Of a DNA stretch of 34,370 nt, positions 311 to 17,696 are shown piece after piece (position 1 is the first letter of the stretch; each line of letters opens with the position of its first letter). Both the position numbers and the translations under genes were made by a program. The notes beneath the pieces are model-generated. The model saw nothing but the letters and a program-made list of their open reading frames with translations, was not told the DNA's origin and searched no databases. Origin of the DNA: Bacteroidota bacterium (GTDB taxonomy: Bacteria > Bacteroidota > Ignavibacteria > Ignavibacteriales > Ignavibacteriaceae); assembly GCA_021824565.1 (NCBI GenBank), contig JAKAKL010000071.1:1-34370 (forward strand), written 5' to 3'.

Positions 311-2383
311 GTGAAAAAATTTATCTCGACTTTATTTGTTGTCTTTCTATTCATATGCAATAAAGAAATAAGTGGGCAATGGATTCATTCGGCTTATACG
401 GGACTAAATGGGCAGTACATATCAGCTATAGCCGTTAGCGGCGAAACATTGTTTGCAGGTACGTATAATGGAGGTGGTATATTTAGTTCGACTAATAACG
501 GCTATACATGGAATAAGATCAATTCAGGGTTATATGGCGATGTAAATTCAATAATATGTAAAGGAAATAGAATATTTGCCGGGACAGATTTAGGTATGTA
601 CAGTTCAACTAATTTCGGTGGAAATTGGATACATGTCGACTCCAGCTCGTTGGAAGTGGATATACATTGTTTTACGTACATCGATTCAACCATAATGGCT
701 GGTACTTACAATGGAGTTTTTATTTCAACAAATAATGGAATTACCTGGGTTAAATCTGATTCAGGATTATCAAATCCAAGTATTCTTTCTTTTGCCGTTA
801 ATGGTTCTGAAATATATGCAGGCAACGGCGGCGGAGAAATATTTCTATCAAAAAATAAAGGCTTAAGCTGGTTAAAAATTTCTTCTCTGCCCTTGAATAC
901 TCCTATTAAGTGTTTAGCAATAGTTGATTCAAATTTATTCGTTGGGACATACGGAGACGGTGTTTATAGAATTACTTTAACAGTTGATTCGGTGTCAGCC
1001 CCGCAAAGAATGCTCTACAATCTTGCAACCTGTTCAATGGCTACAATTGGAAATAATTTATTTATCAGCTGCTACAGCGGCGGTGTTTATCGCACTACAG
1101 ATGAAGGAAACAACTGGTCTCTTTTAAATTTAGGACTAACAAGTTATCCAATTCTTGCACTTGCTGTTAAAGATTCAATTATTTTTGCTGGTGGTGATGG
1201 AGATGGAATTTATCTTTCAACAAACAACGGTGATACTTGGTCTAATTACCCCGACTTCTCACGTGCCTTTGTCTATTCATTTGCATCTGAAGGCAATAAC
1301 TTATTTGCAGGAACTGACGCTGGACTCTTTGTTTCTAATAATAATGGAATAAATTGGAAACAAGTAGATCAAGGCATAACTAATTCCAGAATACAGACAT
1401 TAACAATATCTAATAATAGTATGTTTGCTGGCTCATGGGGCAATGGCGTTTATATCTCAACTAACACCGGTATTAATTGGAATAATCTAAGTAATGGAAT
1501 GACAAACTTAGATGTAATGGCGGTTGTAACTAAAGATTCCATAATATTTGCAGGTACCTACAAAGGTGGTCTCTATAAATCAACTGATAACGGCAATGAC
1601 TGGGTTGCTGCAGATTCAGGACTCACCAGCAGCATTGTAACTTCTTTTGTAATTAAAGGGAATTATCTATTTGCAGGTACTCATGTAAGCGGTATTTTCG
1701 TTTCCTCAAACGACGGTTTAAGTTGGAATTGTGTGGACTCCGGACTAACTAATTTAGATATAAACTCACTTGCTTTATGCGGAAACACAATTTTAGCAGG
1801 TACCTCTTGAGGTGGAGTCTTCATTTCCACTAATGATGGAGCTACCTGGATTCCGTCTAATAACTTGAATATTAGTAATATTAATTCATTGCTGGTATAT
1901 AACGATAATGTTGTTGCGGCTGCTGGATTGGGCGGCATTAGTATTTCTAATGATGGAGGCTTTAATTGGTCTGACGCTAGTACAGGTTTAACGGATATGT
2001 CATGTTATTCCCTTGGAATAAGCGGAACATTTATGTTTATTGGTACTCTCGGCGGGGTTTGGTACCGCCCTCTCTCAGAAATAATAACCAGCGTTAATGA
2101 AAAACATAATGTTATACCTAACGAGTATTCTCTTTACCAGAATTATCCCAATCCATTCAATCCGTCTACTACAATTACTTATGAATTGCCTAAAGCGAGC
2201 TTTGTAACTCTTAAAGTCTTTGATATGCTTGGCAGAGAAATTAAATCGCTTGTTAATGGATATAAGTCCCAAGGTAAATACTCCGTAAACTTTAACGCAA
2301 GCAATCTTGCAAGCGGTGTGTATTTCTACAAAATAGAATCAGGAGAATATAGTTCGATAAAGAAAATGCTGCTGTTGAAATGA
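311..2383 (+). pseudogene. Secreted beta-propeller T9SS cargo gene interrupted by an in-frame TGA
   Basis: From the GTG at 311 the frame encodes a signal peptide. About 14 repeats of roughly 43 residues follow, of the form FAGTxxGGVFxSTNNGxxW plus a spacer ending in SGL, which is typical of BNR/sortilin/YCF48-like beta-propellers. A T9SS sorting domain closes the protein (about 2115-2383). The frame is cut by TGA at 1808-1810, after AGTS in the twelfth repeat. The same frame stays open for 190 more codons, and GGVFISTNDG follows directly. Sibling repeats have a residue such as W or Y here (for example AGSWGNGVY), so TGG to TGA is the likely change. TGA is a normal stop in neighbouring genes (2381-2383, 3652-3654). 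The truncated product would be 499 residues with no sorting domain. Readthrough or sequencing error remain possible. Function unknown, probably surface binding. Confidence 0.75.
2115..2383 (+). repeat. T9SS sorting-domain DNA repeat, copy 2 (copy 1 is 1-269)
   Basis: About 125 bases starting at 2115 are identical to the window start. A short divergent patch follows (around 2242-2270), then another nearly identical block through SGEYSSIKKM, and then a changed final few codons. Blocks of identity broken by clustered differences suggest gene conversion or recent duplication of the sorting domain. Confidence 0.9.
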
Positions 2384-5735: not shown

Positions 5736-6779
5736 TCAAACGGTGATGTGTATATGATTGGAATAAATCCACGCTTTATCGAGATGAAATACTTCTACCC
5801 TGTATGCGCCTTTCTCTTTAACAATAAACTCCGCGCTGCTGCTTGTAACCGAGTCGATTTCATTACCGTTGCGGATCAATTTTATTACGGCATTATCGAC
5901 CGGTACTAAAACTTTCAGCTTAACTTTGCCGTCGCATTTTACAAAACTTCCCATGTTAAAAATTCTATCGCTCGTCTCCGCAAAAAATCTAAATCCTTTT
6001 GAGTCGCCGTGATAATCATTTGCAACAAAGCATAATCCTTCTTTTAGAGAATTGTAAACCAGCGCTTTAGCTCTTGGGAAAAAATCTTTATCCATTTTAA
6101 TTTCTTCCGGCACAAGGACGTGCGTTCTTATAGATTTAAAAAGAACTTTGTATGGAAAAATTTCTACTTCAAGAAATCCAAGCAGGTTATATTTATGCGC
6201 GTGAGCGTCCACCCCGCCGATGCCGACAACCCTTCTTTTCATATTTAATTCATCCCATTTCTTTAAAGTTTCTTCCGGCGGCTTTGTAATTGATCTTAAC
6301 GGATGAAGGAAAGATTGGTACTTATTCTGCTCGGTTAAATTTTCCATCCACTCTGACATGTGGTTCCATATTTCAATGCCGTCAAAATCATCAGTGCCCC
6401 ATTCAGTCCAGGGATATGAAGGATGCTCTTTCATGTGAGTTCTTTTTTCATGCGGATGCGCGAGAAACCCGATGCCGCCCGATTCCTTTATCTGCTTAAC
6501 ATATTCCTTTGCCGATATTCTTGTCGAATAAGTTTCATTTATCCCGAAAGCAAGGTAATGATTTTTATTTTCTTTATCATTTATTTCGCAGCCGACAAGA
6601 AGAAGCGTGTTGTCATAAGGTCCTTCAAAGCCTTCCTTCAAAGCGCGCAGCGTGTTATGATCGGTAAGAATTATGAAATCCAGCCCGCTCTCTTTCGCTG
6701 CTTTAATAATATCCCCGACTTCTCCCGATCCATCGGAAAAAACGGAATGCATGTGTATTGCACCGGCGTATTCAAACAT
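5736..6779 (-). CDS. PHP-domain metal-dependent phosphoesterase
   Basis: The protein is 347 residues. The PHP metal site is visible in order: H9-x-H11, D16 (SDGSGE), D40-H41 (TDHN), E65 (GCEIN), H108/H110 (LAHPH) and the D191-H193-H195 cluster (GGVDAHAH). Members of this superfamily hydrolyse phosphoesters (nucleotides, oligonucleotides or histidinol phosphate) with two or three metals; the substrate here is not evident. Residues after about 260 form a beta-rich tail, possibly an accessory domain. There is no signal peptide, so it is probably cytoplasmic. AGGAAA precedes the ATG. It is a single gene, convergent with nothing and upstream of the repeat spacer. Confidence 0.85.
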   Translation of the reverse strand: MFEYAGAIHMHSVFSDGSGEVGDIIKAAKESGLDFIILTDHNTLRALKEGFEGPYDNTLLLVGCEINDKENKNHYLAFGINETYSTRISAKEYVKQIKESGGIGFLAHPHEKRTHMKEHPSYPWTEWGTDDFDGIEIWNHMSEWMENLTEQNKYQSFLHPLRSITKPPEETLKKWDELNMKRRVVGIGGVDAHAHKYNLLGFLEVEIFPYKVLFKSIRTHVLVPEEIKMDKDFFPRAKALVYNSLKEGLCFVANDYHGDSKGFRFFAETSDRIFNMGSFVKCDGKVKLKVLVPVDNAVIKLIRNGNEIDSVTSSSAEFIVKEKGAYRVEVFHLDKAWIYSNHIHITV

Positions 6780-6873: not shown

Positions 6874-6898
6874 AAAAAAGGCGCCTCTGTTCGGCGCC
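6874..6898 (-). terminator. Rho-independent terminator of the cytochrome/TPR cluster
   Basis: Read on the minus strand, GGCGCC-GAACAGA-GGCGCC is followed by six T. It lies 24 bases after the stop of the last TPR gene and closes the cluster. Confidence 0.85.
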
Positions 6899-6921
6899 CT
6901 AAAAAATCTTTTTAAAAATTC

Positions 6922-7521
6922 TCACTTAAGCTGGCTGATAGATTCTTTCGCTCTCGGTGCAAGAGGCGAATTCGGAAACTCCATTACGAGCTTTGTCCAT
7001 ATCTGCTGCGCTTTTACTTTGTCACCTTTGCTTGCGGCAATTGCGCCGAGATTGTAATACGCCTGCACGTTATTTTTATCGACTGCAATTACCTTATGTA
7101 AATAATTCTCCGCCTCATCAAAATTTTTCTGAACGTAATTTAGATATGCAACCGTAAATAAAATATCGATTCGCTTCGGATTTATATTTAATATTTTCTG
7201 ATAATAATTAATTGCTTTATCTTTTTGATGGGCTTCCGCAAGGAAATCTGCATACTGTCTGATCTTAAGCGTGTCATTCGGATGGGCGTCAACGTCTTTT
7301 TTCATATCTTCCATTTTCTGCATCACGCTTGCCATAACGTTATCCTTTCCCGGAGGCGGATTCTGTATTCCGTTATGGATTTGATCCTGCGGCATCTGGC
7401 TGCTGCCTCCGCTCATAGGCGACGGCGTTGTTTGCGAAGTGCTTTGCGATATAAAATAAAATATCGCTATCGCTAAAACTATTCCGGTTAAATAAATATA
7501 AAGCGGCTTTATGTTCTTCAT
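6922..7521 (-). CDS. Membrane-anchored TPR protein, possible cytochrome c assembly helper (paralogue 1)
   Basis: The protein is 199 residues, with a single N-terminal membrane anchor (about residues 7-25), a Pro/Ser/Gln-rich linker, and three to four TPR units (about 75-195), including YYNLGAIAASKGD. GGAG lies eight bases before the ATG. The layout (anchor, linker, periplasmic TPR) matches NrfG/CcmI-type proteins, which hold apocytochrome c during haem attachment. That role is inferred only from architecture and from lying in a cluster encoding about 50 haem sites. It is a close paralogue of the next upstream gene (shared MPQD, HNGxxNP, MxxVMQ/IMQ and the TPR core) and is the last gene before a terminator. 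Confidence 0.8.
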   Translation of the reverse strand: MKNIKPLYIYLTGIVLAIAIFYFISQSTSQTTPSPMSGGSSQMPQDQIHNGIQNPPPGKDNVMASVMQKMEDMKKDVDAHPNDTLKIRQYADFLAEAHQKDKAINYYQKILNINPKRIDILFTVAYLNYVQKNFDEAENYLHKVIAVDKNNVQAYYNLGAIAASKGDKVKAQQIWTKLVMEFPNSPLAPRAKESISQLK

Positions 7522-7757
7522 TTATATCTCCAAAAAATATCTTTCTCTAAAGTTTCCCGTCTATAACAGTTTTTATACCAGGAATTCTTTTAGCAATATG
7601 CTCTTAAAATATGATATTTTCCGGTTATTCAGATGCGCGCTGCAATGGAATATTTAATTATGGAATTCTATTCCCACCTGTGAGAATGATTCTTCCGCCG
7701 CTTATTTTGAAGCTGATGTCCTATTATAATTAAATGGTGTGTATTAATAGGAATATT
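7522..7757. other. Spacer between the two TPR paralogues; nothing recognised
   Basis: This is 236 AT-rich bases with no open frame, RNA gene or convincing hairpin. It is the longest gap in the cluster and could hold a separate promoter for the last TPR gene, but none could be assigned. Confidence 0.4.
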
Positions 7758-8393
7758 TTACAATTGGCTTAATGATTCTTTCGCCTTTTGCGCTAATGGA
7801 GATTTAGGATAATTATTAACTATCCTTGACCACAACTCTCTTGCCCTGGCTTTGTTCCCTTTATTAGCCGACACTGCGCCGAGGTTATATAATGCATTGA
7901 CATTATTCTTATCAACCGCTAAAATTCTATTTAAATATTTCTCCGAGTCGTCAAGCTTGTTTTGTGAAAAATAAATATAAACCATCGCAGTCATCACGTC
8001 TACTCTTCGCGGGTTTATCGCAAGTATTTTCTTATAATAAAATAAAGACTGATCGAACATCTGTGCGTCCAATAAAAATTCGGCATAATCTCTTAGCTTG
8101 ACAGTATCGCGCGGGTGCGCTTGTACTTCCTTTTTTAATTCTGCCATATGCTGCATTATACTCGGCATAACGTTCTTCTTGCTCGGCTTTTCTGCAATAG
8201 GATTTTCTAATCCTTTATGAACTGCGTCCTGCGGCATTTGCTGTCCGGTAACATTTCCCGGAGGCGCGTTCATGTGTTCCGGCGAATTTATATCGGGGTT
8301 TCCCTGCGCAATAAAATACAGCGTGATTATTAAAACTACTACTCCGCTTATGTAGAAGTATACTGGTTTTATTTTCTTCAAATCAAATCTCAA
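7758..8393 (-). CDS. Membrane-anchored TPR protein (paralogue 2)
   Basis: The protein is 211 residues. An N-terminal anchor (about 11-28) is followed by a Pro/Asn/Gly-rich linker with MPQDAVHKG, then TPR units (about 80-205), including ALYNLGAVSANKGN. The start codon is TTG at 8393, supported by AGGAAA just upstream; no in-frame ATG lies near. It ends in AKESLSQL, matching AKESISQL of its neighbour, so the two arose by tandem duplication. It follows the barrel gene by 35 bases. As for the paralogue, a role in guiding apocytochromes (NrfG/CcmI-like) is inference; a scaffold for the conduit is an alternative. Confidence 0.8.
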   Translation of the reverse strand: MRFDLKKIKPVYFYISGVVVLIITLYFIAQGNPDINSPEHMNAPPGNVTGQQMPQDAVHKGLENPIAEKPSKKNVMPSIMQHMAELKKEVQAHPRDTVKLRDYAEFLLDAQMFDQSLFYYKKILAINPRRVDVMTAMVYIYFSQNKLDDSEKYLNRILAVDKNNVNALYNLGAVSANKGNKARARELWSRIVNNYPKSPLAQKAKESLSQL

Positions 8394-8397
8394 ATAA

Positions 8398-8403
8398 TTT
8401 CCT
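8398..8403 (-). promoter_or_regulatory. Ribosome-binding site AGGAAA supporting a TTG start
   Basis: On the minus strand AGGAAA stands four bases before TTG at 8393-8391. It is the only plausible start for the TPR paralogue. Confidence 0.55.
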
Positions 8404-8428
8404 AACTTTATTTTAAAACTGAGCTTTA

Positions 8429-10069
8429 TTAAAATCTATAATTAAATCCCGTCATGAACCTATTGTAAGTCGTCGCTCCGTTGAAATCTCCCTCATAATA
8501 AAAGTTAAAAAACAACGGACCTAAAATTCTTGTATATATTTGTCCATTAACCGACTTCTGAATAAACTTGCCGGCGTTAAATCCAAAGTTATATGATATG
8601 TTTGAATATCCAAGTGATATTGTTGTCGCATTAAACGGCAAATATTTATAAATAGTAGCGCCGTATATCGTACCGTCCTGGTAATTATTAAATACGCGGT
8701 TATAATTTAGGATCAATGTTATGTCGATAAAAGGTATCATAGATTCCGAGATAGAAGCGCCGAAATTTCTTGATGGTCTTACATCTCCTTTTTGATAGCT
8801 GTATCCGCCGTTCAGGTTAAGGAACAATCCGTTAACGGGTCTTAAGAAAAATCCAGCATGCAAACCCTGCCGCATCTCGTTGGTAAACAAGCTGTCGAGG
8901 AAGCTTTTAAATGTTTGATAGTAAACTACGTTCTTTCTCGCGTCGTATGAAAGATTAAGAGTAATAAACCTTGCCGGCGTGTACTCTGCGTTGAAGAATA
9001 AACTTGTAAGAGAAAAATTATTCTGCTGAACGTTGTTCATTTCCTGGAAAAGATCAACTTCGCTTGACAAGAAAAAATACAAATTATTAAAAGCGTTATC
9101 CGTATGCTGGAAATAAAGAAACCTTCTGTCCGTTTTGCCGTGATTCATCTGCTGGAATAAAGCTAAAGTTGTCTGCATAACTCCGCTGTTAACAGAATCG
9201 GTTCTATTAATATATCCGCCGTATTCAAACAACTGCGAATTCAAACCCATGTTATAAAAATCCGGTCGCGATCCGATTATTCCGCCTAATGCGAAGTTCC
9301 CTAAATTCTTTTCCCCCTGCAGTCCGTCGATCGGTCCTACGCTTGAAACATTATAATTCATATGCCGACCGAACCATACATTGTATGAGCTGGTTTTATA
9401 TCCGAAAGACAAATCATAGATTTTTAGATTGTTGAAAACGTTCGCCTTAACGTCCCTCCATTCAGAACTCATGTAAGAAAGATTCATATAGTTGGAAAAA
9501 TAAAACGGGCTGCCTCCAATATTTTCAGCATTCATGTTTAAAGTATAATCCCATCTTTGAATTCCAACACTGTTCGGATAGTTGGCATAATTTGAAAATG
9601 AGTTCGCATTGAAACTGCCGTAAAAATTTCTTCTGTTAGTCGGCACCGCAAACTTATCCACCTTCTTTACTGTTTGTGTATTTGATGCTTGAACAAGATT
9701 TGTATCCTTTTCGCTTCCTGCAGATAATGTTTGTTTTTCATTTGTTGTTTCCGCTTTGCCGACATAAGCAAATAATACATCTCCTACTTTTATTTCCTCT
9801 TTACCGATCTTCTCACCCGAAATGGATTTCGATGAAATATATTTTACTATCATAACCGGTACATTTTCTCTATCGTGCTCATAATAAAGAGTATCGCCGA
9901 CAGATATTCCATCGGTATTTTCAAACATCAAATAAATATTCTGAGGAGTTATGAAAGATACTTTACCTTCCTTTTTAACTACCTGCTTCTCACGTGCATA
10001 AACTGCGGCACACAATGCTAATAAAATTAAAGCTGTTGTCTTAAACATTTTTTCCAAATTTTTATTCAT
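8429..10069 (-). CDS. Outer-membrane beta-barrel protein of the multihaem cluster
   Basis: From ATG 10069 the protein is 546 residues; an in-frame extension to 10105 would precede the signal peptide and is unlikely. A signal peptide (KTTALILLALCAAVYA) is followed by a small beta domain (about residues 15-105; GISVGDTLYY and KVGDVLFAYV look like SH3/barwin-type turns), a linker, and then about 400 residues of alternating amphipathic strands rich in Tyr/Asn/Phe. It ends in NYRF, with the terminal Phe typical of barrels inserted by the BAM machinery. No Cys remains after the signal peptide and there is no haem motif. It starts nine bases after the 31-haem cytochrome stop. By analogy with porin-cytochrome conduits (MtrB, PCC) it may hold a cytochrome across the outer membrane, but I see no sequence link to those families. 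Confidence 0.75.
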   Translation of the reverse strand: MNKNLEKMFKTTALILLALCAAVYAREKQVVKKEGKVSFITPQNIYLMFENTDGISVGDTLYYEHDRENVPVMIVKYISSKSISGEKIGKEEIKVGDVLFAYVGKAETTNEKQTLSAGSEKDTNLVQASNTQTVKKVDKFAVPTNRRNFYGSFNANSFSNYANYPNSVGIQRWDYTLNMNAENIGGSPFYFSNYMNLSYMSSEWRDVKANVFNNLKIYDLSFGYKTSSYNVWFGRHMNYNVSSVGPIDGLQGEKNLGNFALGGIIGSRPDFYNMGLNSQLFEYGGYINRTDSVNSGVMQTTLALFQQMNHGKTDRRFLYFQHTDNAFNNLYFFLSSEVDLFQEMNNVQQNNFSLTSLFFNAEYTPARFITLNLSYDARKNVVYYQTFKSFLDSLFTNEMRQGLHAGFFLRPVNGLFLNLNGGYSYQKGDVRPSRNFGASISESMIPFIDITLILNYNRVFNNYQDGTIYGATIYKYLPFNATTISLGYSNISYNFGFNAGKFIQKSVNGQIYTRILGPLFFNFYYEGDFNGATTYNRFMTGFNYRF

Positions 10070-10077
10070 AAAAAATT

Positions 10078-12372
10078 CTAATCTCCTTGCCCGGTCGGAT
10101 GACATGTATAGCAGTCTTCATTCTGATGATGAGCGTCTTTATGACAAATTGCATTGCATGAATGGGCTGCGAAATTTGAAATTGTTTGATGGCAGTTTGC
10201 ACATGCAGTGTTGTGACTCCCTGTAAGCGGGAAGTACATAGTATGATTGAATGTTGACGGCGTCCAGGCTGTAGTTGTATGGCATTGTGTACAATCCGTC
10301 GGATAACCTGCCGATTGATGCGGAGGATTCGTTGTTCCAGCATAATCCGCAGTATGACATGTATAGCATAGAGTAGACGTTCCTGATACGCTTCCTTTAT
10401 GACATGACTCGCAGCTTATCGTTGTGTGGAAACCTGTAAGTGCAAATCCAGTTGTCGCATGATTGAATGTTGTTGTTGTAAACGGCGCCGCTATACTATG
10501 ACAGTCGCCGCATGTCTGAGGTAATCCCGCTGCTACATGGTTTACTGGTGTTGCCGCTGCATTATAATCTTTCAAATGGCATGATACACAGGCTGTTGAT
10601 GTATTTATATAACCTGACGTATGGCATTGTGCACATTGCAAATTCGCGTGCTCTCCAGTCAGAGGAAATCCTAACGCCGTATGGTCTACCGATGCTCCAT
10701 CCCAGTTTGTTGTTGTATGACACTGAGAACATGTGTGTGAAAATCCCTGCGCTGCATGATTTGGGTCTGTTGTTCCTGCATAATCTGCAGCATGGCATGA
10801 GTAGCAGTCTGTTGGTGTTCCTGATACGCTTCCTTTATGACATGACTCGCAGCTTATCGTTGTGTGGAAACCTGTAAGTGCAAATCCCGTTGTCGAATGA
10901 TTGAATGTTGTTGTTGTAAATGGCGCCGCTATACTATGACAGTCGCCGCATGTCTGAGGTAATCCCGCTGCTACATGGTTTACTGGTGTTGCCGCTGCAT
11001 TATAATCTTTCAAATGGCATGACACACAAGCTGTAGAAGTATTTATATAACCTGACGTATGGCATTGTGCACACTGCAGATTCGCGTGCTCTCCGGTCAA
11101 CGGGAATCCTAACGCCGTATGGTCTACCGATGCTCCATCCCAGTTTGTTGTTGTATGACACTGAGAACATGTGTGTGAAAATCCCTGCGCTGCATGATTT
11201 GGGTCTGTTGTTCCTGCATAATCTGCAGCATGGCATGAGTAGCAGTCTGTTGGTGTTCCTGATACGCTTCCTTTATGACATGACTCGCAGCTTATCGTTG
11301 TGTGGAAACCTGTAAGTGCAAATCCCGTTGTCGAATGATTGAATGTTGTTGTTGTAAATGGCGCCGCTATACTATGACAGTCGCCGCATGTCTGAGGTAA
11401 TCCCGCTGCTACATGGTTTACTGGTGTTGCCGCTGCATTATAATCTTTCAAATGGCATGACACACAAGCTGCAGAAGTATTTGTATAACCAGATGCATGA
11501 CACTGTGCGCATTGTAAATTTGCATGCACCCCGGTAAGAGGGAACCCGGTATCGTTATGATTAAACTTTGCCGCCGCAATTAAAGATGTAAAGCTCATAG
11601 TGTTGTGACAGTCTACGCAGTTCGTAGAAAAGTTAGCAGCAATGTGATCCGGATTTTTAGCAGTTAAATAATTTTGTTTATGACATGAATAGCAATCGGT
11701 TGTTAATCCTTTAAAGTTACTTCCCGGGGCGTGGCATGCAAAGCAATTTTGAATATTATGTCCGCCTACAAGCGGGAAAAAGCTATGGTCAAAATTTGTA
11801 TTGCCCCAATTGAAGTCCGTTAAATTATGGCATGTCTGGCAGTCTGTTGAAAAATTAGCCTGGATATGATTTGGAGCTGTTGTTGCGAGATATTGCTGCT
11901 TATGACAGCTATAACAGGAAACGCTCTGTGCGGGAAAATATAAATTAGCATAACCTGAATGACAACTCTGGCAATCAACATTTAAGTGCACGCCCATTAA
12001 AGGAAACCTGCCGTTCTGATGTATCTGGATAATGTTTACAACTATCCACGAATCAGTGTTGTGGCATTGAACGCAATTTGTTCCAACACTTTTTTGATGG
12101 ACATCTTTATGGCACGATATACATTGAGATTTTACTTCCGAAAACACAAGACTTTTATGGCATGATTGGCAGCTAACGGAAGCATGCTGCCCAGTAAGCT
12201 TAAAAGCTGTTTCAGCATTGTGATCAAATTTTATATCCTTGGGAATTATTTTCCAATTTGATGATTCATGGCAGTTCGCACAATCAATCTTAAGTAAATT
12301 ACCATGAGGCGATTGTGCTAATATCCCCACCGAACAAATCAACACAAACATTATGCATGACAAGCTGCGCAT
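10078..12372 (-). CDS. Very large multihaem cytochrome c (30 CxxCH plus one CxxxCH)
   Basis: The protein is 764 residues, beginning with a signal peptide (MRSLSCIMFVLICSVGILAQ). I count 30 CxxCH motifs and one CxxxCH (CNAICH, near the C-terminus), about one haem per 25 residues, a density that implies closely stacked haems. Ten segments follow FxHxxTxFxLxGxHxxxxCxxCH, where the extra His residues are natural distal ligands. Residues about 288-720 are built from nearly identical 146-residue, six-haem units (2.9 copies). It is rich in Thr/Ala/Asn/Gly between haems, as expected for an exported protein. No lipobox, T9SS domain or membrane segment beyond the signal is seen. The start overlaps the previous cytochrome gene by 22 bases; an alternative ATG at 12351 would sit in TAATG with its stop. 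The likely role is an extracellular or periplasmic electron wire. Confidence 0.9.
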   Translation of the reverse strand: MRSLSCIMFVLICSVGILAQSPHGNLLKIDCANCHESSNWKIIPKDIKFDHNAETAFKLTGQHASVSCQSCHKSLVFSEVKSQCISCHKDVHQKSVGTNCVQCHNTDSWIVVNIIQIHQNGRFPLMGVHLNVDCQSCHSGYANLYFPAQSVSCYSCHKQQYLATTAPNHIQANFSTDCQTCHNLTDFNWGNTNFDHSFFPLVGGHNIQNCFACHAPGSNFKGLTTDCYSCHKQNYLTAKNPDHIAANFSTNCVDCHNTMSFTSLIAAAKFNHNDTGFPLTGVHANLQCAQCHASGYTNTSAACVSCHLKDYNAAATPVNHVAAGLPQTCGDCHSIAAPFTTTTFNHSTTGFALTGFHTTISCESCHKGSVSGTPTDCYSCHAADYAGTTDPNHAAQGFSHTCSQCHTTTNWDGASVDHTALGFPLTGEHANLQCAQCHTSGYINTSTACVSCHLKDYNAAATPVNHVAAGLPQTCGDCHSIAAPFTTTTFNHSTTGFALTGFHTTISCESCHKGSVSGTPTDCYSCHAADYAGTTDPNHAAQGFSHTCSQCHTTTNWDGASVDHTALGFPLTGEHANLQCAQCHTSGYINTSTACVSCHLKDYNAAATPVNHVAAGLPQTCGDCHSIAAPFTTTTFNHATTGFALTGFHTTISCESCHKGSVSGTSTLCYTCHTADYAGTTNPPHQSAGYPTDCTQCHTTTAWTPSTFNHTMYFPLTGSHNTACANCHQTISNFAAHSCNAICHKDAHHQNEDCYTCHPTGQGD
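10213..11511 (-). repeat. 438-bp in-frame tandem repeat inside the cytochrome gene (2.9 copies)
   Basis: Units run 11511-11074, 11073-10636 and 10635-about 10213, each starting at the first Cys of CAQCH. Units 1 and 2 are almost identical at the DNA level. Unit 3 matches up to CESCHKGSVSG and then diverges. Each complete unit carries six haem motifs: CAQCH, CVSCH, CGDCH, CESCH, CYSCH and CSQCH. Confidence 0.93.
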
Positions 12373-13970
12373 TTGAAATCTCTCAGTTTATATTGTATAA
12401 AAACATTTCCATTATTTGTAACCTTCCTGTGGCATGAAAAGCACGGTACTTTCTCGTGAGCCCCTTTCAACGGGAAATTGGTTTTTTCGTGATTAAATTT
12501 TAAAGGTTTCCAGTTTTCAAATTCATGACAGTTTTCGCAGACTGACGCAGTGCCTTTTTTCTCAGAGTCGAATTGTCCAAAGTGAATATCATTATGGCAT
12601 GTTGTACAATCTGAATTCAGAGAAGCGAATTTAAAAGATATTTTCCCAAACTCATTTTTTATTTCATGGCATCCGCCGCAAGAAACAGAATCGTGTTTAC
12701 CTAGTAATTTAAAACCGGTTAAGTCATGATCGAAATTAATTTTGTTCCAATCATCGGTAACATGACATGATTCGCATTTATTATCGGGCAAAAACTTTTC
12801 TGTAAGTTCGGTTCCATGCACATTCTGATGACAATCAATGCATTTGAGCCCAATATTTTTAAAGTGCCATTGTTTGACGTTTGCTTTGTAATGGCATGAG
12901 AGACATGGAACGGCAAGGTGCGCGCCGCTCAATTTAAATTTTCCCTTATCATGATCTTGAATCGTAAATAAAGTTGTCTTAAAGCTATTAACATCATGGC
13001 AAACTTTACAGTCGGTAACAACATTGTTAACAGTAAATTCGCCAAAGTGAGCATCTTTATGGCAGTCGGTGCACTTTGCAAATTTTGGTTTTGAAAGCAA
13101 TTTTTTTCCATGACAGTCTGCGCACGAGACGCGGACGTGAGCGCCTTCGAGAGGGAATTTTGTTTTGCTGTGGTCGAAAGAATTTCTATTCATTACTTTG
13201 AAGGATTCCACGTTGTGGCATCTTGCACAGTTATCTCCAAATTGTCCTTTGTGAATATCTTTATGACATGGTTCGCAATTTTTAAATTGAAGACCCACAA
13301 ACTTTTGAAAGAGTTTGCCGTGCAAAGTTTCTTTCACGTGGCATTTAATGCATTCAACTTTTGCATGCGCGCCGCTTAATTTAAATTTTGCATTATCGTG
13401 ATTGAACAAAGCAGCCGGCTGAAATTTAACTGTGTTGTGGCACGAAGCGCAGTTACTGCCAAGAGTATTTTGATGCACGTCTTGATGGCATGTTACGCAA
13501 TTAGTGCTAAGACCAAGGTACGTTCCGGTTCTTTTCTCAAAGAGAGAATTAGTTATAAATTTTGCTTGATGACATTCTTCGCATTTTAATTGAGAATGTT
13601 TTCCTTCCAACTTAAAACCGGTTTTATTATGATCAAACTTATCCGGGAAAAAATTAATTATTCTGAAGCTCCGTCCATGATGCTCGCTGTGGCAATCCCA
13701 GCAATTTTTTCCTTCCACTTCAGGGCTAACGTGGTAACCTTCATTCTTATCAATCATAGCTTTTATTTCGGTGTGGCAGGCAAGACAGCGGGAGTTTTCT
13801 AATTGTTTTCCAAGCACATGGCACTTCGTGCAGTTGCTTAATCCCTCAAGCTTTGCATGAGCAAAAGTAAGATCGCCTGGAGAAATTTGAGCATGTATTT
13901 TTGATGTAAAAGACAATAACACCATAGCTATATATAAAATATTTTTTAGAGATTTAATTTTAATCTTCAT
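12351..13970 (-). CDS. 20-haem cytochrome c
   Basis: The protein is 539 residues with a signal peptide (MKIKIKSLKNILYIAMVLLS to KIHAQ) and 20 CxxCH motifs. Six copies of the block FDHxxTxFxLxGxHxxxxCxxCH are seen, for example FDHNKTGFKLEGKH before CEECH. They alternate with CxxCHxDxHxGxF blocks (CHKDIHKGQF, CHKDAHFGEF, CHNDIHFGQF), so the fold is probably a chain of two- to three-haem cytochrome c7/c3-like modules. It is Lys-rich, unlike the Thr/Ala-rich partner. The protein stops one residue after the last haem motif (CAACHA). The start overlaps the oxidoreductase gene by 11 bases and the end overlaps the next cytochrome by 22, so the three are translationally linked. A periplasmic electron carrier is the likely role. 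Confidence 0.9.
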   Translation of the reverse strand: MKIKIKSLKNILYIAMVLLSFTSKIHAQISPGDLTFAHAKLEGLSNCTKCHVLGKQLENSRCLACHTEIKAMIDKNEGYHVSPEVEGKNCWDCHSEHHGRSFRIINFFPDKFDHNKTGFKLEGKHSQLKCEECHQAKFITNSLFEKRTGTYLGLSTNCVTCHQDVHQNTLGSNCASCHNTVKFQPAALFNHDNAKFKLSGAHAKVECIKCHVKETLHGKLFQKFVGLQFKNCEPCHKDIHKGQFGDNCARCHNVESFKVMNRNSFDHSKTKFPLEGAHVRVSCADCHGKKLLSKPKFAKCTDCHKDAHFGEFTVNNVVTDCKVCHDVNSFKTTLFTIQDHDKGKFKLSGAHLAVPCLSCHYKANVKQWHFKNIGLKCIDCHQNVHGTELTEKFLPDNKCESCHVTDDWNKINFDHDLTGFKLLGKHDSVSCGGCHEIKNEFGKISFKFASLNSDCTTCHNDIHFGQFDSEKKGTASVCENCHEFENWKPLKFNHEKTNFPLKGAHEKVPCFSCHRKVTNNGNVFIQYKLRDFKCAACHA

Positions 13971-15300
13971 GCTTTAAGATAGCTTCGCCGAATTTTTTAG
14001 TAATATTAATTCCTGTTTTCTGTAGAAAGTCTGTTGGAAGCAGTCCGCCGGCCAAGACATAGACAAGATCGTTCTCGAGTTCGAGTATTTGATCCGAGTT
14101 ATTAATTGTAAGAATAACTTTATCTTCAAATATTTCTTTTACGTTTGAGTTAAAAATTATTTCAACTTTATTTTGTGATGCAGCTTCTGTAATATTTTCC
14201 TGATTTCTTGGTTTTATCCTTGAGAAGTTTTCGCCTCTGTAAGAAAGAGTAACTTTGTTGCCGCCCTCATGGCAAAGCATCAGCGCAGCCTCAATAGCCG
14301 AATCTCCGCCACCAACGACGAGTATTTTTTTGTCCAAGATCATTTCAGGTTCAAGAAGACGGTAAGCAACCTTTTCTTTTCCTTCACCGGGAACGCCAAG
14401 CTTACGCGGAGAACCGCGCCGTCCGATAGCAATAACGACTCCTTTGGAAGTGTATGTTCCCTTAGAAGATTTAACTTCAAAATAATTTTGCTTTCTTTCA
14501 ATAGATTCAACTTTTTCATTTTCGTTTACAGTAATATTATTCTCTTTTAATATTGAACGCCAAAGTTCGAGGAGTTCCGGTTTTGAAGTTTCTTTCATTT
14601 TTATTTTACCGTGCATTGGAAGTTCAACAGGAGAGGTCATAATTAATTTTGCACGCGGAAAGTTATAAACGGTGCCTCCCAAAGTATCCTGTTCCAGGGT
14701 TAGGAAATTAAGATTATTTTTAAAAGCTGTTAAGGATGCTGCTATGCCAGCCGGTCCAGCACCAACTATGATAAGGTCATGATCTGTTTTAACCCGTTTG
14801 TCCATTTTCTTGGTAAAGAAATTAACTGCTTGTTTTCCCTGTTCGATTGCATTTTTTATTAATCCCATACCGCCCAATTCTCCTGCAATGTAAAGACCAG
14901 GAATATTCGATTCATATTCCTGGCTGACATGCGGAAGATCGACCCCTCTTTTTTCAGTGCCGATACAAAGTGTAATTGCATTAAGCGGGCAAGCATGAAA
15001 ACAAGCTCCGTGCCCGACACAACGGGATGCATTTATAACATGCGCCTGCCCGTCGACTATTCCTATAATGTCCTGTTCGGGACAAGCAGTAATACATGCA
15101 CCGCTTCCTATACATCTATTAAGATCTACTACAGGATGAAGTGAAACCGGTTCGTGGAATCCCAGCTTTTTTGCGGTTTCAATTTTAGAGATTGTTACCT
15201 TGCTTGCCTGATAATGTTTTCTTAAATACCATAAGAGTATTGTAGCCGTAAATAATAGTACAAAGAAATAAGTTGTATAGTTTTCAATTACAGTTTCCAT
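13960..15300 (-). CDS. Membrane-anchored Fe-S and FAD/NAD(P)-binding oxidoreductase
   Basis: The protein is 446 residues. Domain order: one membrane helix (about 8-26); two ferredoxin-like cluster motifs, C63-x5-C69-x3-C73-P and C94-x5-C100-x3-C104-P; a short GLYIAGELGG segment (about 135-144); then a thioredoxin-reductase-like fold with an FAD dinucleotide motif GAGPAG (180-185) and an NAD(P) motif VGGGDSAIEAA. The canonical second Cys of each cluster motif is Ser66 and His97. No CxxC redox pair is present in the flavin part, so it is not a thioredoxin reductase. It lies between a cytochrome b-like gene and two giant cytochromes, which suggests electron exchange between NAD(P)H or ferredoxin and the haem chain. 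Direction and partner are inference. Confidence 0.85.
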   Translation of the reverse strand: METVIENYTTYFFVLLFTATILLWYLRKHYQASKVTISKIETAKKLGFHEPVSLHPVVDLNRCIGSGACITACPEQDIIGIVDGQAHVINASRCVGHGACFHACPLNAITLCIGTEKRGVDLPHVSQEYESNIPGLYIAGELGGMGLIKNAIEQGKQAVNFFTKKMDKRVKTDHDLIIVGAGPAGIAASLTAFKNNLNFLTLEQDTLGGTVYNFPRAKLIMTSPVELPMHGKIKMKETSKPELLELWRSILKENNITVNENEKVESIERKQNYFEVKSSKGTYTSKGVVIAIGRRGSPRKLGVPGEGKEKVAYRLLEPEMILDKKILVVGGGDSAIEAALMLCHEGGNKVTLSYRGENFSRIKPRNQENITEAASQNKVEIIFNSNVKEIFEDKVILTINNSDQILELENDLVYVLAGGLLPTDFLQKTGINITKKFGEAILKHED

Positions 15301-15416
15301 CTATAATCTGATTTTGATAAATGTATATCGAAAGTTCTGATGTACCTTCGATTCAAAATTTTTGAAACTGAATGCTCTAGCAGACTTACATATTTCAATG
15401 TAGAATTTATTTCATA

Positions 15417-16292
15417 TCAGAATATCCACTTATATCCAAAAGCTACAGTAACGCCAATATGAATAAACATAATAACAAACATAAGAATGGCAAAAGGCAA
15501 ATGAACAACGTGCCAATATCTGAAAAATTTTAACATGGTTTTCAAGAGTCCTATTCTTCGCGAAATAATCAGCTTTGCTTTAGCTGCCTTTAATATATTA
15601 TTTCGCTGGGGCTTCGGGACTCCCGCAAGAGTCAATTCATGTTTCAGCCTGTGAATTACACTTTTTATACCAAAAAAATCTTTTAGTATAAAGATGACTC
15701 CAACTTTTAATTTTATATTATTATATCGTTTAAGAGATGAATATTCCTCAATTTCCAAGAAAATTTTTTCGGGGATTTTATATACATCTTTTAATTGGTG
15801 CGAAAGATTTTCGTTTTCTGAATTTAATTCATCCATACTTATCATTTGTCCCTGAATCGTATGAGGTATCTGGACGTAAAGAACTCTGCCAATAATTCCG
15901 CTTAGCACAACTGCTGTCATACTCCAAAAACTTACAGCCACTATGCCTCCGAATTTAAAAGCAGTATGGAAAAGGACAAATATTGGTCCGAGAGTGCATA
16001 GGAAAATGTGAAGTTCAAGCCAATTCTTTAAATATCCAAAGTGAAGAAAATATCTAATTCTTTTTCGTATCATATAGACAGCTACGCCGACAATCATCAT
16101 AAAACTGCCAAGTACTCCTAATCCCTGACCAATAAGTCCGCTGGGTTTTAATAAGATGTCCTGGGAATTAAAAAAACGAGTTACAAGCGGTGTTGTGTAA
16201 TATTGATAACCATTTATAGCTAAGAAAAGTGTGGAGATGATGCCGATGATAAAAAAAGATGAGACGTAAATAGCATGAAGTTTTTTATTCAT
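15417..16292 (-). CDS. Diheme cytochrome b-like membrane protein
   Basis: The protein is 291 residues with about five membrane helices (about 8-28, 56-75, 92-113, 116-140, 262-285) and a charged cytoplasmic-type stretch (145-255) between the last two. His pairs are spaced 14 apart in two helices, H95/H109 and H264/H278. This spacing is the hallmark of two stacked b haems in the cytochrome b, ferric reductase and NOX families. Further His at 84, 144 and 261 may serve quinone or haem contacts. It is the first gene of the cytochrome cluster, 116 bases before the Fe-S/flavin gene. The likely task is moving electrons between the quinone pool or cytoplasmic flavin and the periplasmic cytochromes. 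No close named family is recognised. Confidence 0.7.
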   Translation of the reverse strand: MNKKLHAIYVSSFFIIGIISTLFLAINGYQYYTTPLVTRFFNSQDILLKPSGLIGQGLGVLGSFMMIVGVAVYMIRKRIRYFLHFGYLKNWLELHIFLCTLGPIFVLFHTAFKFGGIVAVSFWSMTAVVLSGIIGRVLYVQIPHTIQGQMISMDELNSENENLSHQLKDVYKIPEKIFLEIEEYSSLKRYNNIKLKVGVIFILKDFFGIKSVIHRLKHELTLAGVPKPQRNNILKAAKAKLIISRRIGLLKTMLKFFRYWHVVHLPFAILMFVIMFIHIGVTVAFGYKWIF

Positions 16293-16345
16293 TTAAAATT
16301 CGAAATAATATTTTACAGAATAATTGTTTATGCTAACTTAAAGTA

Positions 16346-16375
16346 GGCGGTTAGAAATAACCGCCCATTTTTTTT
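16346..16375 (+). terminator. Strong hairpin with T-tract in plus orientation, between two minus-strand genes
   Basis: GGCGGTTA-GAAA-TAACCGCC is followed by CA and eight T on the plus strand. No plus-strand gene lies upstream. On the minus strand the hairpin is not followed by a T-run but still lies between the ABM-like gene and the cytochrome b gene, where it could separate transcripts or protect a 3' end. Confidence 0.5.
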
Positions 16376-16385
16376 GAACCATCAA

Positions 16386-16691
16386 TCAAACTTGATCGAT
16401 CTCATACAGAGTGGAATACTTTGTTGAATTTTCAACTGTAAGGTCGTTCAGCTTTGCGACAAGAATATTAATCCTTTCATCCTGATTATCATCAAAGGCT
16501 TCATAAGACTCAACCGATGAGAAGGAATATATTTCTTCATAGTGATTTGCTTTCCCTTTGTTTTCGTAAATGGAATAGCTTTCCAATCCATCTGCCTTAA
16601 CAAGGTTTTTCAGTTCTTTGATGACAGTTAAAAATTCATCATTTTTATTTGCTTTAAGTTCATATTGAATTGTGAAAATTACTTTGGGCAT
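16386..16691 (-). CDS. Small ABM-like (dimeric alpha/beta barrel) protein
   Basis: The protein is 101 residues with no signal peptide and GGAG eight bases before the ATG. The pattern of beta strand (KVIFTIQYELK), helix (NDEFLTVIKELKNLV), strand (SYSIYENKG), strand (HYEEIYSFSS), helix and final strand matches the antibiotic-biosynthesis-monooxygenase/ferredoxin-like barrel superfamily. These proteins act as small oxygenases, haem-degrading enzymes or simple dimers; no catalytic residues can be assigned here. Its neighbour upstream is DapF, 33 bases away, so the two may be co-transcribed. Confidence 0.5.
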   Translation of the reverse strand: MPKVIFTIQYELKANKNDEFLTVIKELKNLVKADGLESYSIYENKGKANHYEEIYSFSSVESYEAFDDNQDERINILVAKLNDLTVENSTKYSTLYEIDQV

Positions 16692-16724
16692 TTATACTCC
16701 ATATTATTTAGGATTTTTTTTATT

Positions 16725-17579
16725 TTAAATTAAGACTTCACCGCTAAAGATTATTTTAGCAGGTCCGGTTAACGAAAGATTTTTTATTTTTTGATTTTCA
16801 ACTTTAAAGTCTACAAGCAATTCATCGCCGCCGCGCGTAATCAATGAAATCGGCGCTTCAAGTTTATCGGTAACATAAGAAATAATTGCTGCAGCAGTAG
16901 AACCGGTGCCGCATGCAAGTGTTTCATCTTCAACTCCGCGTTCGTAAGTCCGTATATAAATTCTTTTGTCTACAATCTTGATAAAGTTAACATTCGTGCC
17001 GGCTGGAGAAAATTCTTTTAAGTTTCTTATTTCTCTTCCCAAATTGAATACAGGGAACCCGTCAATATTTTCATAGCCTGATTTTTGATCATGAATATTC
17101 TTAAGAACATCATTAATTTTAATAACTACATGAGGCGAACCTGTATCCGCATAGCAAGCATTTATAAGCTGACCGCCTGCTTTAACTTTAAAATTATATT
17201 TCAATTTAGCCGGGGGATTAAAATCGAACTTAATTATATCTTCAGTTAAAACCTCGCCGGTATATTGCACTGAATTTGATAGGAATTGAGTTCTTCCGCT
17301 TTTTATCCTTCTTGAAGAGTCCGCAAATTTTATCGCGCATCTTGCACCGTTACCGCAAAGGCTTCCGGTAGAGCCATCGGCATTAAAATATTCCATTTCA
17401 AAGTCATAAGCTTTTGAATTAGAAATAGTAATAACTCCGTCAGCGCCGACACCATTCCTGCGGTCGCACAACTTCTGAATTAGTTTTGAATCGAGGCTGA
17501 ATGCAGGATTAATATTTTTATCTATAACGATAAAATCATTACCCGCACCGCTCATTTTTTTAAAAGAAATTTTTTCCAT
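16725..17579 (-). CDS. dapF: Diaminopimelate epimerase
   Basis: The protein is 284 residues from ATG 17579 (a GTG directly in front, at 17582, is less likely). It converts LL- to meso-diaminopimelate for lysine and peptidoglycan synthesis in the cytoplasm. The two catalytic Cys lie in their usual motifs: C75 in SLCGNGARC and C223 in ACGTGSTAA. The N-terminal KMSGAGNDF and the central AGTNVNFI segment (about 193-200) are also characteristic. Length is normal for the family. No other lysine gene is near. Confidence 0.97.
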   Translation of the reverse strand: MEKISFKKMSGAGNDFIVIDKNINPAFSLDSKLIQKLCDRRNGVGADGVITISNSKAYDFEMEYFNADGSTGSLCGNGARCAIKFADSSRRIKSGRTQFLSNSVQYTGEVLTEDIIKFDFNPPAKLKYNFKVKAGGQLINACYADTGSPHVVIKINDVLKNIHDQKSGYENIDGFPVFNLGREIRNLKEFSPAGTNVNFIKIVDKRIYIRTYERGVEDETLACGTGSTAAAIISYVTDKLEAPISLITRGGDELLVDFKVENQKIKNLSLTGPAKIIFSGEVLI

Positions 17580-17696
17580 CACAGTTGCAATTTAGGACAA
17601 TATGAATTCCTTTTCAATAAAAATATTAAGGGTTAATAATTTAGTTATACAATTTGTTACCATTAATACATAGTAGAGGGGATAAATTTCTAAATG

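Follow-up and report, generated by a model that had tools for sequence, protein, structure and literature searches.

In the usual scheme of extracellular electron transfer in Gram-negative bacteria, electrons leave the quinol pool through CymA, ImcH, or CbcL, as in the excerpts of one account (PMC6295460). The closest described system to the locus studied here is PCC3. The inner-membrane protein of PCC3 and PCC4 has approximately 300 aa and five helices, with WX3HX13H on TM3 and TM5 and SGXXG on TM4 (PMC5566968). PCC3 has been described in Proteobacteria; its periplasmic cytochrome has a median of approximately 21 haems, its extracellular cytochrome has many haems and repeats at 22-39 residues per haem, and its clusters include an outer-membrane barrel gene, with barrels of up to 42 strands reported. 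The PCC3 passages of PMC5566968 list a porin, an extracellular MHC, a periplasmic MHC, and the inner-membrane protein, whereas an extract of another paper gives the genes in a different order.

The window, namely, the whole stretch of 34,370 nt analysed, is from contig JAKAKL010000071.1 (assembly GCA_021824565.1) of a Bacteroidota bacterium of the Ignavibacteriaceae. A first-pass annotation had described a cluster of seven minus-strand genes with approximately 51 haem sites. All seven ORFs were found with the same coordinates and strand (Table 1), and we counted 20 haem motifs in a 539-aa protein and 31 in a 764-aa protein. The reported overlaps of 11 bases (FAD gene and 20-haem gene) and 22 bases (20-haem and 31-haem genes) were reproduced. 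The nine-base gap between the 31-haem gene and the barrel gene also exists, but is 8 bases when the barrel starts at Met13, a nearly invariant residue in relatives; the barrel ORF at its longest shares 28 bases with the 31-haem gene. The proposal of one tightly linked gene set was borne out because a five-gene core (diheme b protein, FeS-FAD protein, 20-haem cytochrome, variable cytochrome, and barrel) recurs in relatives as a conserved module. Hairpin-plus-T sites lie just beyond both ends of the operon. However, they are suggestive only, since a scan of the region (11 hairpins) barely exceeded shuffled sequences (mean 7.8, sd 3.0).

Table 1. Features of the operon and its flanks in the window.
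Feature	Coordinates	Strand	Basis or detail
Terminator-like hairpin, between upstream genes and cytB	16344..16367	-	consensus scan
cytB, 291-aa inner-membrane protein of the diheme b type with five transmembrane helices	15417..16292	-	motifs, AF2, hydropathy
WX3HX13H motif 1 (W91, H95, H109), TM3, proposed haem-b ligands	15966..16022	-	alignment
WX3HX13H motif 2 (W260, H264, H278), TM5, proposed haem-b ligands	15459..15515	-	alignment
FeS-FAD protein, anchored in the membrane at its N-terminus, with two 4Fe-4S-type motifs and a YpdA/thioredoxin-reductase-like FAD and NAD(P)H domain	13960..15300	-	Pfam
Fe-S motifs CIGSGAC..CP (Ser in place of the second Cys) and CVGHGAC..CP (His in that place)	14986..15114	-	counts in relatives
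20-haem c-type cytochrome, Sec-type signal, proposed periplasmic bridge	12351..13970	-	20 CXXCH
31-haem c-type cytochrome, Sec-type signal, variable-length member	10078..12372	-	30 CXXCH and 1 CX3CH
438-bp tandem repeat, 2.7 copies, 94% matches	10331..11527	-	TRF
Outer-membrane beta-barrel, likely start 10069	8429..10105	-	AF2, fold matches
TPR protein 1, N-terminal transmembrane helix	7758..8393	-	TPR families
TPR protein 2, layout like TPR protein 1	6922..7521	-	TPR_CcmH_CycH
Terminator-like hairpin after last gene	6878..6900	-	consensus scan

The cytB protein carries the PCC3 inner-membrane signature in its length, five helices, and both motifs. The first-pass annotation, which did not mention PCC3, had seen no obvious place for the b-type protein and barrel in the named conduit families; this signature argues otherwise for the b protein. 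The genome has no match to the MtrB/PioB-family barrel (PF11854) at E<=0.001. Both WX3HX13H motifs and SGXXG were present in 53/53 aligned cytB sequences, including that of the window. In two further comparisons, motif 1 was invariant, and motif 2 was conserved in 28/29 sequences of one and invariant in the other. The AF2 model is helical (pLDDT 81.7), and hydropathy also gave five hydrophobic helices. No match to Pfam or NCBIfam was obtained at E<=0.01, and a fold search with the model gave no informative match. Ferric reductases and NADPH oxidases similarly have two HX13H on two helices, and in these enzymes a cytoplasmic NAD(P)H-FAD module feeds two membrane b-haems. Despite its HX13H motifs, cytB was not assigned to the ferric reductase family or fold by Pfam or the fold search. 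Moreover, the flavin module is here a separate YpdA-type protein with Fe-S clusters, and the acceptor is a cytochrome chain.

The FeS-FAD protein matched Fer4 and Pyr_redox_3 (5.8e-52), and its score of 177.3 bits against PF13738 (cut-off 30) places it in this FAD/NAD(P)H family. The YpdA model TIGR04018 scored 187.2 bits (3.1e-55), under its cut-off of 339.9 bits; by this model, the protein is not a bacillithiol reductase. Its nearest solved structures by sequence are YpdA/Bdr (PDB). His occupies the second-Cys position of the second Fe-S motif in 114/114 FeS-FAD proteins; the same position of the first motif is S in 63, T in 38, C in 11, V in 1, and A in 1. The first-pass annotation had named the NAD(P)H/quinone pool as the inner end of the path. 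The domains support NAD(P)H, whereas nothing tested supported quinone.

The two cytochromes differ in constancy. The first, which matched Cytochrome_C7 (2.4e-23), has 20 or 23 haems in 100/113 related ORFs. In the second, the haem number is 3k+1 in 86/95 related ORFs, with a maximum of 82 in a protein of 2039 aa. Each 438-bp repeat unit in the window encodes 146 aa with six haems, or two triheme modules as judged from motif spacing. The haem count of the variable cytochrome, from 10 to 82, may change by the gain or loss of triheme modules. The window protein has 24.6 residues per haem (764/31), and its lone CX3CH is CNAICH at residue 739. A profile search found no T9SS tail on either cytochrome, while the genome gave at least 150 matches; no lipobox was seen in the N-termini of the cytochromes. 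The DmsE-family decaheme model TIGR03508 matched the C-terminal part of the 20-haem protein at 4.8e-13. However, with 49.2 bits against a cut-off of 192.2 and 20 haems rather than 10, we rejected the protein as a decahaem MtrA.

The barrel model (pLDDT 82.6, pTM 0.60) has a small N-terminal beta domain followed by 22 strands, as counted from the strand list with one three-residue strand omitted. Foldseek and VIA-align matched it to outer-membrane barrels, with MtrB one of many general matches. Pfam gave no match at E<=0.01, and NCBIfam had no model for it. The TPR genes are accessory to the core. TPR protein 1 matched the NrfG model (2.5e-9, far under the cut-off) and is a possible cytochrome-assembly helper; TPR protein 2 matched TPR_CcmH_CycH (7.6e-8, below the cut-off). 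In many loci named Ignavibacteria, TPR genes separate cytB from the gene that follows it, and homologues of TPR protein 1 come after cytB in relatives; none were seen among 14 Bacteroidales-named loci in the neighbourhood rows listed.

The module is not limited to Ignavibacteria. The core was found in loci named Ignavibacteria, Bacteroidales, Saprospiraceae, and Chlorobiota, and an Emticicia plasmid of a cultured strain holds a complete copy adjoining the cytochrome-assembly gene ccsA. Synteny was counted in 79/80 named loci with a called FAD gene, only where the contig reaches far enough; one locus, for which the ORF filter kept an antisense ORF (L109), was left out. The cytB gene is upstream of the FAD gene in 70/70 testable loci, and the 20-haem gene is downstream of it in 73/74. 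The kept synteny of barrel and cytochromes, on which the first-pass proposal had been staked, was found, with the variable cytochrome in 64/65 loci and the barrel in 36/37. The sole miss in each of the last three counts is the same locus (L060). In deeper lineages, the set is kept with the FAD gene at the far end in 10/12 genomes. Since the set is conserved, a chance origin is excluded.

Among 395 phylum genomes, 40 had cytB matches at E<=1e-40, and 39 had the FAD orthologue (E<=4.3e-69), all among these 40. The 40th genome has a decayed locus, in which cytB has in-frame stops and the barrel is reduced to a stub. In another 19 genomes, the cytB matches were all weak (E 7e-9 to 1e-3), and several of the matched proteins have approximately 195 aa. 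Named carriers include Emticicia oligotrophica DSM 17448, Maribellus luteus XSD2, and Phaeodactylibacter xiamenensis KD52. Some relatives (Phaeodactylibacter, Emticicia) are usually regarded as aerobic heterotrophs.

We placed the module near PCC3 because the b signature, a barrel, an approximately 20-haem cytochrome, and a many-haem cytochrome are all present, and the best reading is that it would work like PCC3 (He 2017, PMC5566968). This likening of a Bacteroidota module to a proteobacterial one uses the published description and motifs. Here, the 20-haem cytochrome is the predicted periplasmic member and the 31-haem cytochrome the putative extracellular one. With the FAD gene inserted, the genes follow the PCC3 list of PMC5566968, though not that of the other paper, and the PCC3 passages do not mention an FeS-FAD protein (PMC5566968). 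Two features are new relative to these passages: the FeS-FAD protein, whose second Fe-S motif has His, is part of each intact locus, and the cytochrome pair joins a first member with 20 or 23 haems to a variable one on the 3k+1 ladder. Extracellular cytochromes of Gallionellaceae PCC3 have 10, 11, 12, 13, 14 and further numbers of haems, off the three-haem ladder (PMC10734462). OmbB-OmaB-OmcB conduits, reported in Ignavibacteria (excerpts of PMC7399161), also combine a barrel with two multihaem cytochromes; however, those of the prototype have 8 and 12 haems, versus 20 and 31. MtrCAB, MtoAB, and PioAB share a barrel and a multihaem cytochrome with the module, but have CymA in place of the b-type protein and flavoprotein. 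Their barrel has 26 strands versus the 22 predicted here.

Plasmid searches for PCC3-type loci returned only short b-protein loci and Emticicia. A distant cytB homologue was found in 14 non-Bacteroidota plasmid records, four of which were examined (Alteromonas, Methylophaga, Acetobacter, and Variovorax; identity 22.6-25.2%, E 4e-12 to 7e-7). In 4/4, the homologue is flanked by an NAD/FAD/2Fe-2S oxidoreductase immediately upstream and by a 7-haem cytochrome immediately downstream. The homologues have two HX13H in 4/4, Trp only on the last helix in 3/4, and SGXXG in 3/4. Unlike the present module, the oxidoreductases belong to FAD_binding_6, NAD_binding_1, and Fer2, the cytochrome is short, and no barrel is named in the annotated stretch. 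These loci represent an independent pairing of the b protein with an NAD/FAD oxidoreductase.

We consider it somewhat probable that the product of the operon is a PCC3-like trans-envelope conduit with a dedicated NAD(P)H entry. On the cytoplasmic face, the anchored FeS-FAD protein would oxidise NAD(P)H and send electrons through its Fe-S clusters, and the b protein, through its two haems, would take them across the inner membrane, as in ferric reductases and NADPH oxidases, although here the flavin module would form its own subunit. The fixed-length 20-haem cytochrome would then span the periplasm and meet or enter the 22-strand barrel, and the triheme-built cytochrome may extend the path beyond it to extracellular oxidants, such as metal oxides, humics, electrodes, or partner cells. 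TPR proteins, where encoded, may aid cytochrome assembly. Net flow is taken as outward because NAD(P)H is of low potential and negative inside to outside is downhill. We infer outward flow, the quinone bypass, and the exterior location. The full chain, in which an NAD(P)H flavoprotein with a Cys3-His-type Fe-S site, the b protein, and the 20-haem bridge with its barrel feed an external wire of 10-82 haems without quinone, is proposed tentatively, at somewhat less than even chances. The first-pass annotation had every layer supplied; the path is chemically complete from NAD(P)H and two b-haems to the pair of long c-type cytochromes and the barrel, but its arrival at the cell exterior is a prediction. 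The variable cytochrome lacks a detected T9SS tail or lipobox, which counts against this conduit, as do the lack of an informative fold match for cytB, the incomplete b signature of the proteobacterial homologues, the 19 genomes with weak cytB matches alone, the down-regulation of both PCC3 clusters on Fe(II) in Sideroxydans ES-1 and the difficulty of naming an external acceptor for heterotroph carriers.

The quinone exchange that He 2017 proposed for the same kind of b protein also counts against the conduit that starts at NAD(P)H, and a quinone-linked or inward version, in which the b protein exchanges with menaquinone, the FAD protein acts as a regulator or on a side branch, and extracellular Fe(II) or other donors feed respiration, is the next to consider. 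That PCC3 model was built on the same b-haem motifs (PMC5566968), the literature discusses PCC3 in iron oxidisers, and, according to an excerpt, iron-oxidising cells of Sideroxydans CL21 showed a significant rise of the inner-membrane gene in one of the PCC3 copies. However, the FAD protein is no less constant than the cytochromes, and the distant proteobacterial b homologues also adjoin an NAD/FAD oxidoreductase. NAD(P)+ reduction from Fe(II) is, moreover, uphill, and we regard this version as rather unlikely.

We give a lower chance to an envelope store, with both cytochromes periplasmic, the barrel serving another purpose or as an anchor, and the haems buffering electrons for periplasmic reductases or stress defence. 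Neither cytochrome has a detected export signal of the two types above, carriers include organisms regarded as aerobic heterotrophs, and charge storage has been proposed for PCC3 cytochromes. However, the barrel belongs to the module in 36/37 testable loci, and an extended 82-haem chain would hardly fit the periplasm. A dedicated NAD(P)H-dependent reductase for detoxification or metal assimilation (e.g. selenite, tellurite, or ferric iron) appears very improbable. The 20-haem protein matched ExtO (1.1e-12) and ExtN (2e-12) of the selenite/tellurite operon; however, both matches are weak, far under the cut-offs, and confined to residues 193-310, and CXXCH spacing alone may explain them.

The NAD(P)H-fed conduit would assign a function to a b protein and a barrel for which neither Pfam nor NCBIfam has a model, and would cast doubt on the quinone-active role put forward for PCC3. 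Across the phylum, a flavoprotein gene of the NAD(P)H type is inherited together with the wire as its entry gene, so that a quinone-independent exit can be tested directly, also in the named strains above. The near-fixed cytochrome beside one varying approximately eightfold on a three-haem ladder offers a ready series of lengths for studying what determines haem-wire reach and rate. If the chain without quinone is true, many Bacteroidota, including unsuspected heterotrophs, could dump reducing power outside the cell directly from NAD(P)H.

The first-pass annotation had described seven minus-strand ORFs, 20 and 31 haem motifs in the two cytochromes, and overlaps of 11 and 22 bases between the middle genes. 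All seven ORFs were present at the positions described, both overlaps were verified, and 20 motifs were counted in the first cytochrome and 31 (30 CXXCH and one CX3CH) in the second. The barrel gene would most likely start at 10069, judging from a Met that is nearly invariant among its relatives; with that start it lies 8 bases 3' of the 31-haem gene. Searches of Pfam and NCBIfam assigned to the FAD protein two Fer4-type motifs and a YpdA/thioredoxin-reductase-like FAD-NAD(P)H part, and to the TPR proteins TPR families and, below the cut-off, NrfG/CcmH-type assembly proteins. Both cytochromes matched Cytochrome_C7 (Pfam). Their NCBIfam matches to DmsE, OmcA/MtrC, ExtN, ExtO, and HmcA were far below the cut-off and were taken as common CXXCH spacing. 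The diheme b protein (cytB, 291 aa) and the barrel matched no Pfam or NCBIfam family at E<=0.01. In many nearer genomes, a 101-aa protein of unknown role and dapF are located upstream of cytB, and a PHP-type protein (named by look) is retained downstream of the module. Among the rows listed, the loci named Bacteroidales showed no match to the 101-aa protein or to dapF next to the module.

Locations of the module and of other features mentioned in the text
Feature	Sequence	Positions	Strand	Remark
Seven-gene module	window	6922-16292	minus	
FeS-FAD protein gene	window	15300..13960	minus	
101-aa protein and dapF	window	16386-17582		
PHP-type protein	window	5736-6779		
T9SS C-terminal sorting domain	window	30-257		over cut-off
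T9SS C-terminal sorting domain	window	2144-2371		over cut-off
T9SS C-terminal sorting domain	window	34252-34359		under cut-off
10-haem cytochrome and short cytB relative	L024 (G028)	131-1120 and 1033-1617		
Decayed module	L032	G024:C56:38000-52000		
Flavoprotein-polyferredoxin fusion	L033	4528-7005	plus	
Flavoprotein-polyferredoxin fusion	L034	2429-4918	minus	
Redox genes near the Emticicia copy	L135	3902-6493		

The order of the genes is also conserved on the scale of the phylum. The FAD-protein alignment, used as a query against named genomes, gave at least 563 confirmed relatives, and the best 80 loci were examined. All 80 were named Bacteroidota, Ignavibacteria, or Chlorobiota groups, bar one "uncultured bacterium"; the names include Ignavibacteriales, Melioribacteraceae, Bacteroidales, Saprospiraceae, and Chlorobiota, with Maribellus luteus and Phaeodactylibacter xiamenensis among them. 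Wherever the contig was long enough, cytB was upstream of the FAD gene (70/70 loci), and the 20-haem gene (73/74), the variable cytochrome (64/65), and the barrel (36/37) were downstream. The same locus, L060, was the sole miss in each downstream count; L109 was left out of the counts by the ORF filter. Among 395 genomes drawn over the phylum, 59 matched cytB at E<=0.001, 40 of them at E<=1e-40; the matches in the other 19 were weak and in several cases were to proteins of approximately 195 aa. The FAD orthologue was found in 39 of the 395 (E<=4.3e-69), all within the 40 genomes with a strong cytB match; therefore, roughly 10% of the genomes sampled have the module.

Rearrangements were observed in a deeper-branching set (13 further stretches from 12 genomes). 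The FAD gene was at the far end in ten of these genomes; G179 has it in the usual position, and G325 on a different contig. The barrel was matched in eight, the contig ends in one, and an unmatched ORF of 546-605 aa occupies its place in three. Plasmid pEMTOL02 of Emticicia oligotrophica DSM 17448 carries the module in complete form, with cytochromes of 23 and 40 haems and an adjoining CcsA gene. Near this copy are genes for a Rieske protein, a DUF5777 barrel, a YceI protein, and a c-type cytochrome domain protein, which possibly form a second redox cluster.

Closer to the window, in 59 genomes mostly of the same genus, family, and order, cytB was detected in 34, the barrel in 32, and an FAD orthologue with at least 58% identity in 32. 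Both genomes with cytB and no FAD orthologue (G015 and G024) have an interrupted cytB. The G024 stretch is a decayed module: between the usual flanking genes, it has a cytB broken by in-frame stops and a barrel stub of 94 aa; FAD and cytochrome genes had no match in this stretch. Another genome, G002 (520 contigs), has cytB and the FAD gene and no barrel match. The usual order in 32 nearby stretches (L021-L032 and L035-L054, from 28 genomes) was cytB, sometimes a TPR gene, the FAD protein, the 20-haem cytochrome, the variable cytochrome, and the barrel. Some stretches were split or rearranged; for example, cytB is approximately 15 kb from the FAD gene in G013. In L024, which is from the same genome as L075, genes for a 10-haem cytochrome and a 195-aa short relative of cytB adjoin the module with a second long cytochrome, which has 34 haems, and may represent an additional conduit.

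The two cytochromes vary in distinct ways. Of 113 ORFs for the first, 82 have 20 haems and 18 have 23 (100 in total); the remaining 13, several of which are split genes, have 8 to 19. Solved multihaem c-type chains in the PDB matched it weakly by sequence (best 4.5e-4). The second has 3k+1 haems in 86 of 95 ORFs. These 95 are the ORFs with the 31-haem protein as their best window match, and two such genes in one genome count twice. The binomial figure for this pattern, 3e-31, overstates its significance because related sequences are not independent; the main point is that 21 different values (10, 13, 16 ... 70, 82) are on the ladder. The nine exceptions have 9, 11, 11, 15, 21, 23, 30, 30, and 33 haems. 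Those in L130 (11 + 11), L103 (15 + 16), and L061 are visibly split or contain N; the others are in L142, L052 (twice), L128, and L038.

Five genes of the second type share a head of approximately 10 haems with nearly identical motif spacing, followed by three-haem units with spacing near 15, 25, and 33. Tandem arrays were detected at the DNA level in 28 of 102 ORFs longer than 300 aa (a few being one gene under two locus ids). The period in 27 of them (216-219, 423-453, 630-672, 876-897, or 1110 bp) corresponds to one to five triheme units, and that of the remaining array is 21 bp. The array in the window's 31-haem gene has a 438-bp period with 94% matches, and the exact haem number in this draft genome of 148 contigs could differ by a repeat. 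Single-contig relatives are also on the ladder (G013, 34; G030, 28; G054, 43; G018, 37; G179, 22), as is the complete Emticicia plasmid with 40. A fixed length would fit a fixed gap, namely, the periplasm, and a free length would fit a part outside the periplasm. The Pfam search gave no T9SS tail for either cytochrome, although matches to this C-terminal sorting domain in the genome number at least 150, and no lipobox was seen in their N-termini.

The motif WX3HX13H, present twice (H95-H109 and H264-H278), and SGXXG were conserved in 53 of 53 aligned cytB sequences. He et al. (2017; PMC5566968) describe the PCC3/PCC4 inner-membrane protein by these motifs, predict two b-haems, and suppose quinone as its partner. 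By the positive-inside rule, H95 and H264 would face the cytoplasm and H109 and H278 the periplasm. The AF2 model (pLDDT 81.7, pTM 0.63) has the expected helices. A PDB fold search with it gave no match at E<=0.001, and the cytB profile found nothing credible in a PDB sequence search. The VIA-align rows matched helix bundles, with ABC transporters, bestrophins, and sensor domains frequent among them, and were discarded; the absence of b-cytochromes and ferric reductases among the matches listed excludes nothing.

Distant cytB homologues were found in 14 non-Bacteroidota plasmid records. In the four examined (Variovorax, Methylophaga, Alteromonas, and Acetobacter), an oxidoreductase with FAD, NAD, and 2Fe-2S domains is directly upstream and a cytochrome with seven CXXCH directly downstream. 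All four homologues have two HX13H motifs, and three have the full WX3HX13H once only. We regard these neighbours as independent evidence that the b family may take electrons from a flavoprotein. Since this oxidoreductase and the window's FAD protein fall into different Pfam families, the pairing seems to have arisen twice. On the Alteromonas macleodii plasmid pAM1A3 (L138), the homologue, its FAD/2Fe-2S partner, and the 7-haem cytochrome are in the same gene run as a hydrogenase set, with one hypothetical gene between, which suggests H2-linked use there.

The FAD protein has a hydrophobic N-terminal anchor followed by CIGSGAC..CP and CVGHGAC..CP. All 114 distinct orthologues have His at the second position of motif 2; in motif 1, this position is Ser in 63, Thr in 38, Cys in 11, Val in one, and Ala in one. 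Comparable motifs occur in 3Fe-4S ferredoxins. The natural reading would be either a 3Fe-4S cluster or one held by three Cys and one His. By sequence, YpdA/Bdr flavoproteins are the closest proteins of solved structure, and NADPH as the substrate would be consistent with the invariant Arg355 and Arg361 in the NAD(P) part. Seven genomes (G048, G039, G057, G024, G049, G416, and G384) have relatives of approximately 830 aa. We considered these as fusions of the FAD and b proteins and rejected this on the basis of the two read by eye, those of L033 and L034 (826-830 aa), which are YpdA-like flavoproteins fused instead to a membrane polyferredoxin-like part. These two have no N-terminal Fe-S motifs; such fusions are possibly another NAD(P)H-to-membrane electron entry.

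In the AF2 model of the barrel (pLDDT 82.6, pTM 0.60), a small beta domain at the N-terminus is followed by a linker of low confidence and then by 22 longer strands (our own count) that lead to a C-terminal Phe. Foldseek and VIA-align matched general outer-membrane barrels, including usher, porin, TonB-dependent, and MtrB chains, at approximately 10% identity. These matches to a predicted model demonstrate a barrel, not which family. The barrel profile found nothing credible in a PDB sequence search.

The module works like PCC3, known here by published descriptions, and shares at least three of the six PCC3 features listed. In contrast to PCC3, it adds the FeS-FAD protein, which was present in every intact locus examined, and its variable cytochrome is on the three-haem ladder. 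The extracellular PCC3 counts given for Gallionellaceae (10, 11, 12, 13, 14, 15, 16, 18 ...) form no such ladder, whereas the periplasmic counts given there (21, 24, 27) also rise in steps of three (PMC10734462). Both PCC3 clusters of Sideroxydans ES-1 were reported to decrease on Fe(II), and one PCC3 inner-membrane gene of strain CL21 to increase in iron-oxidising cells. Novel porin-cytochrome clusters, left unnamed, are mentioned for Bacteroidetes by He et al. (2019; PMC6344600), together with an unbinned contig that carries a putative cluster with a 51-haem cytochrome; the present module may be included among these. A search of literature listings and text passages found no description of the five-gene set. 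Within that search, no account of the module came from the phylum through which it is spread.
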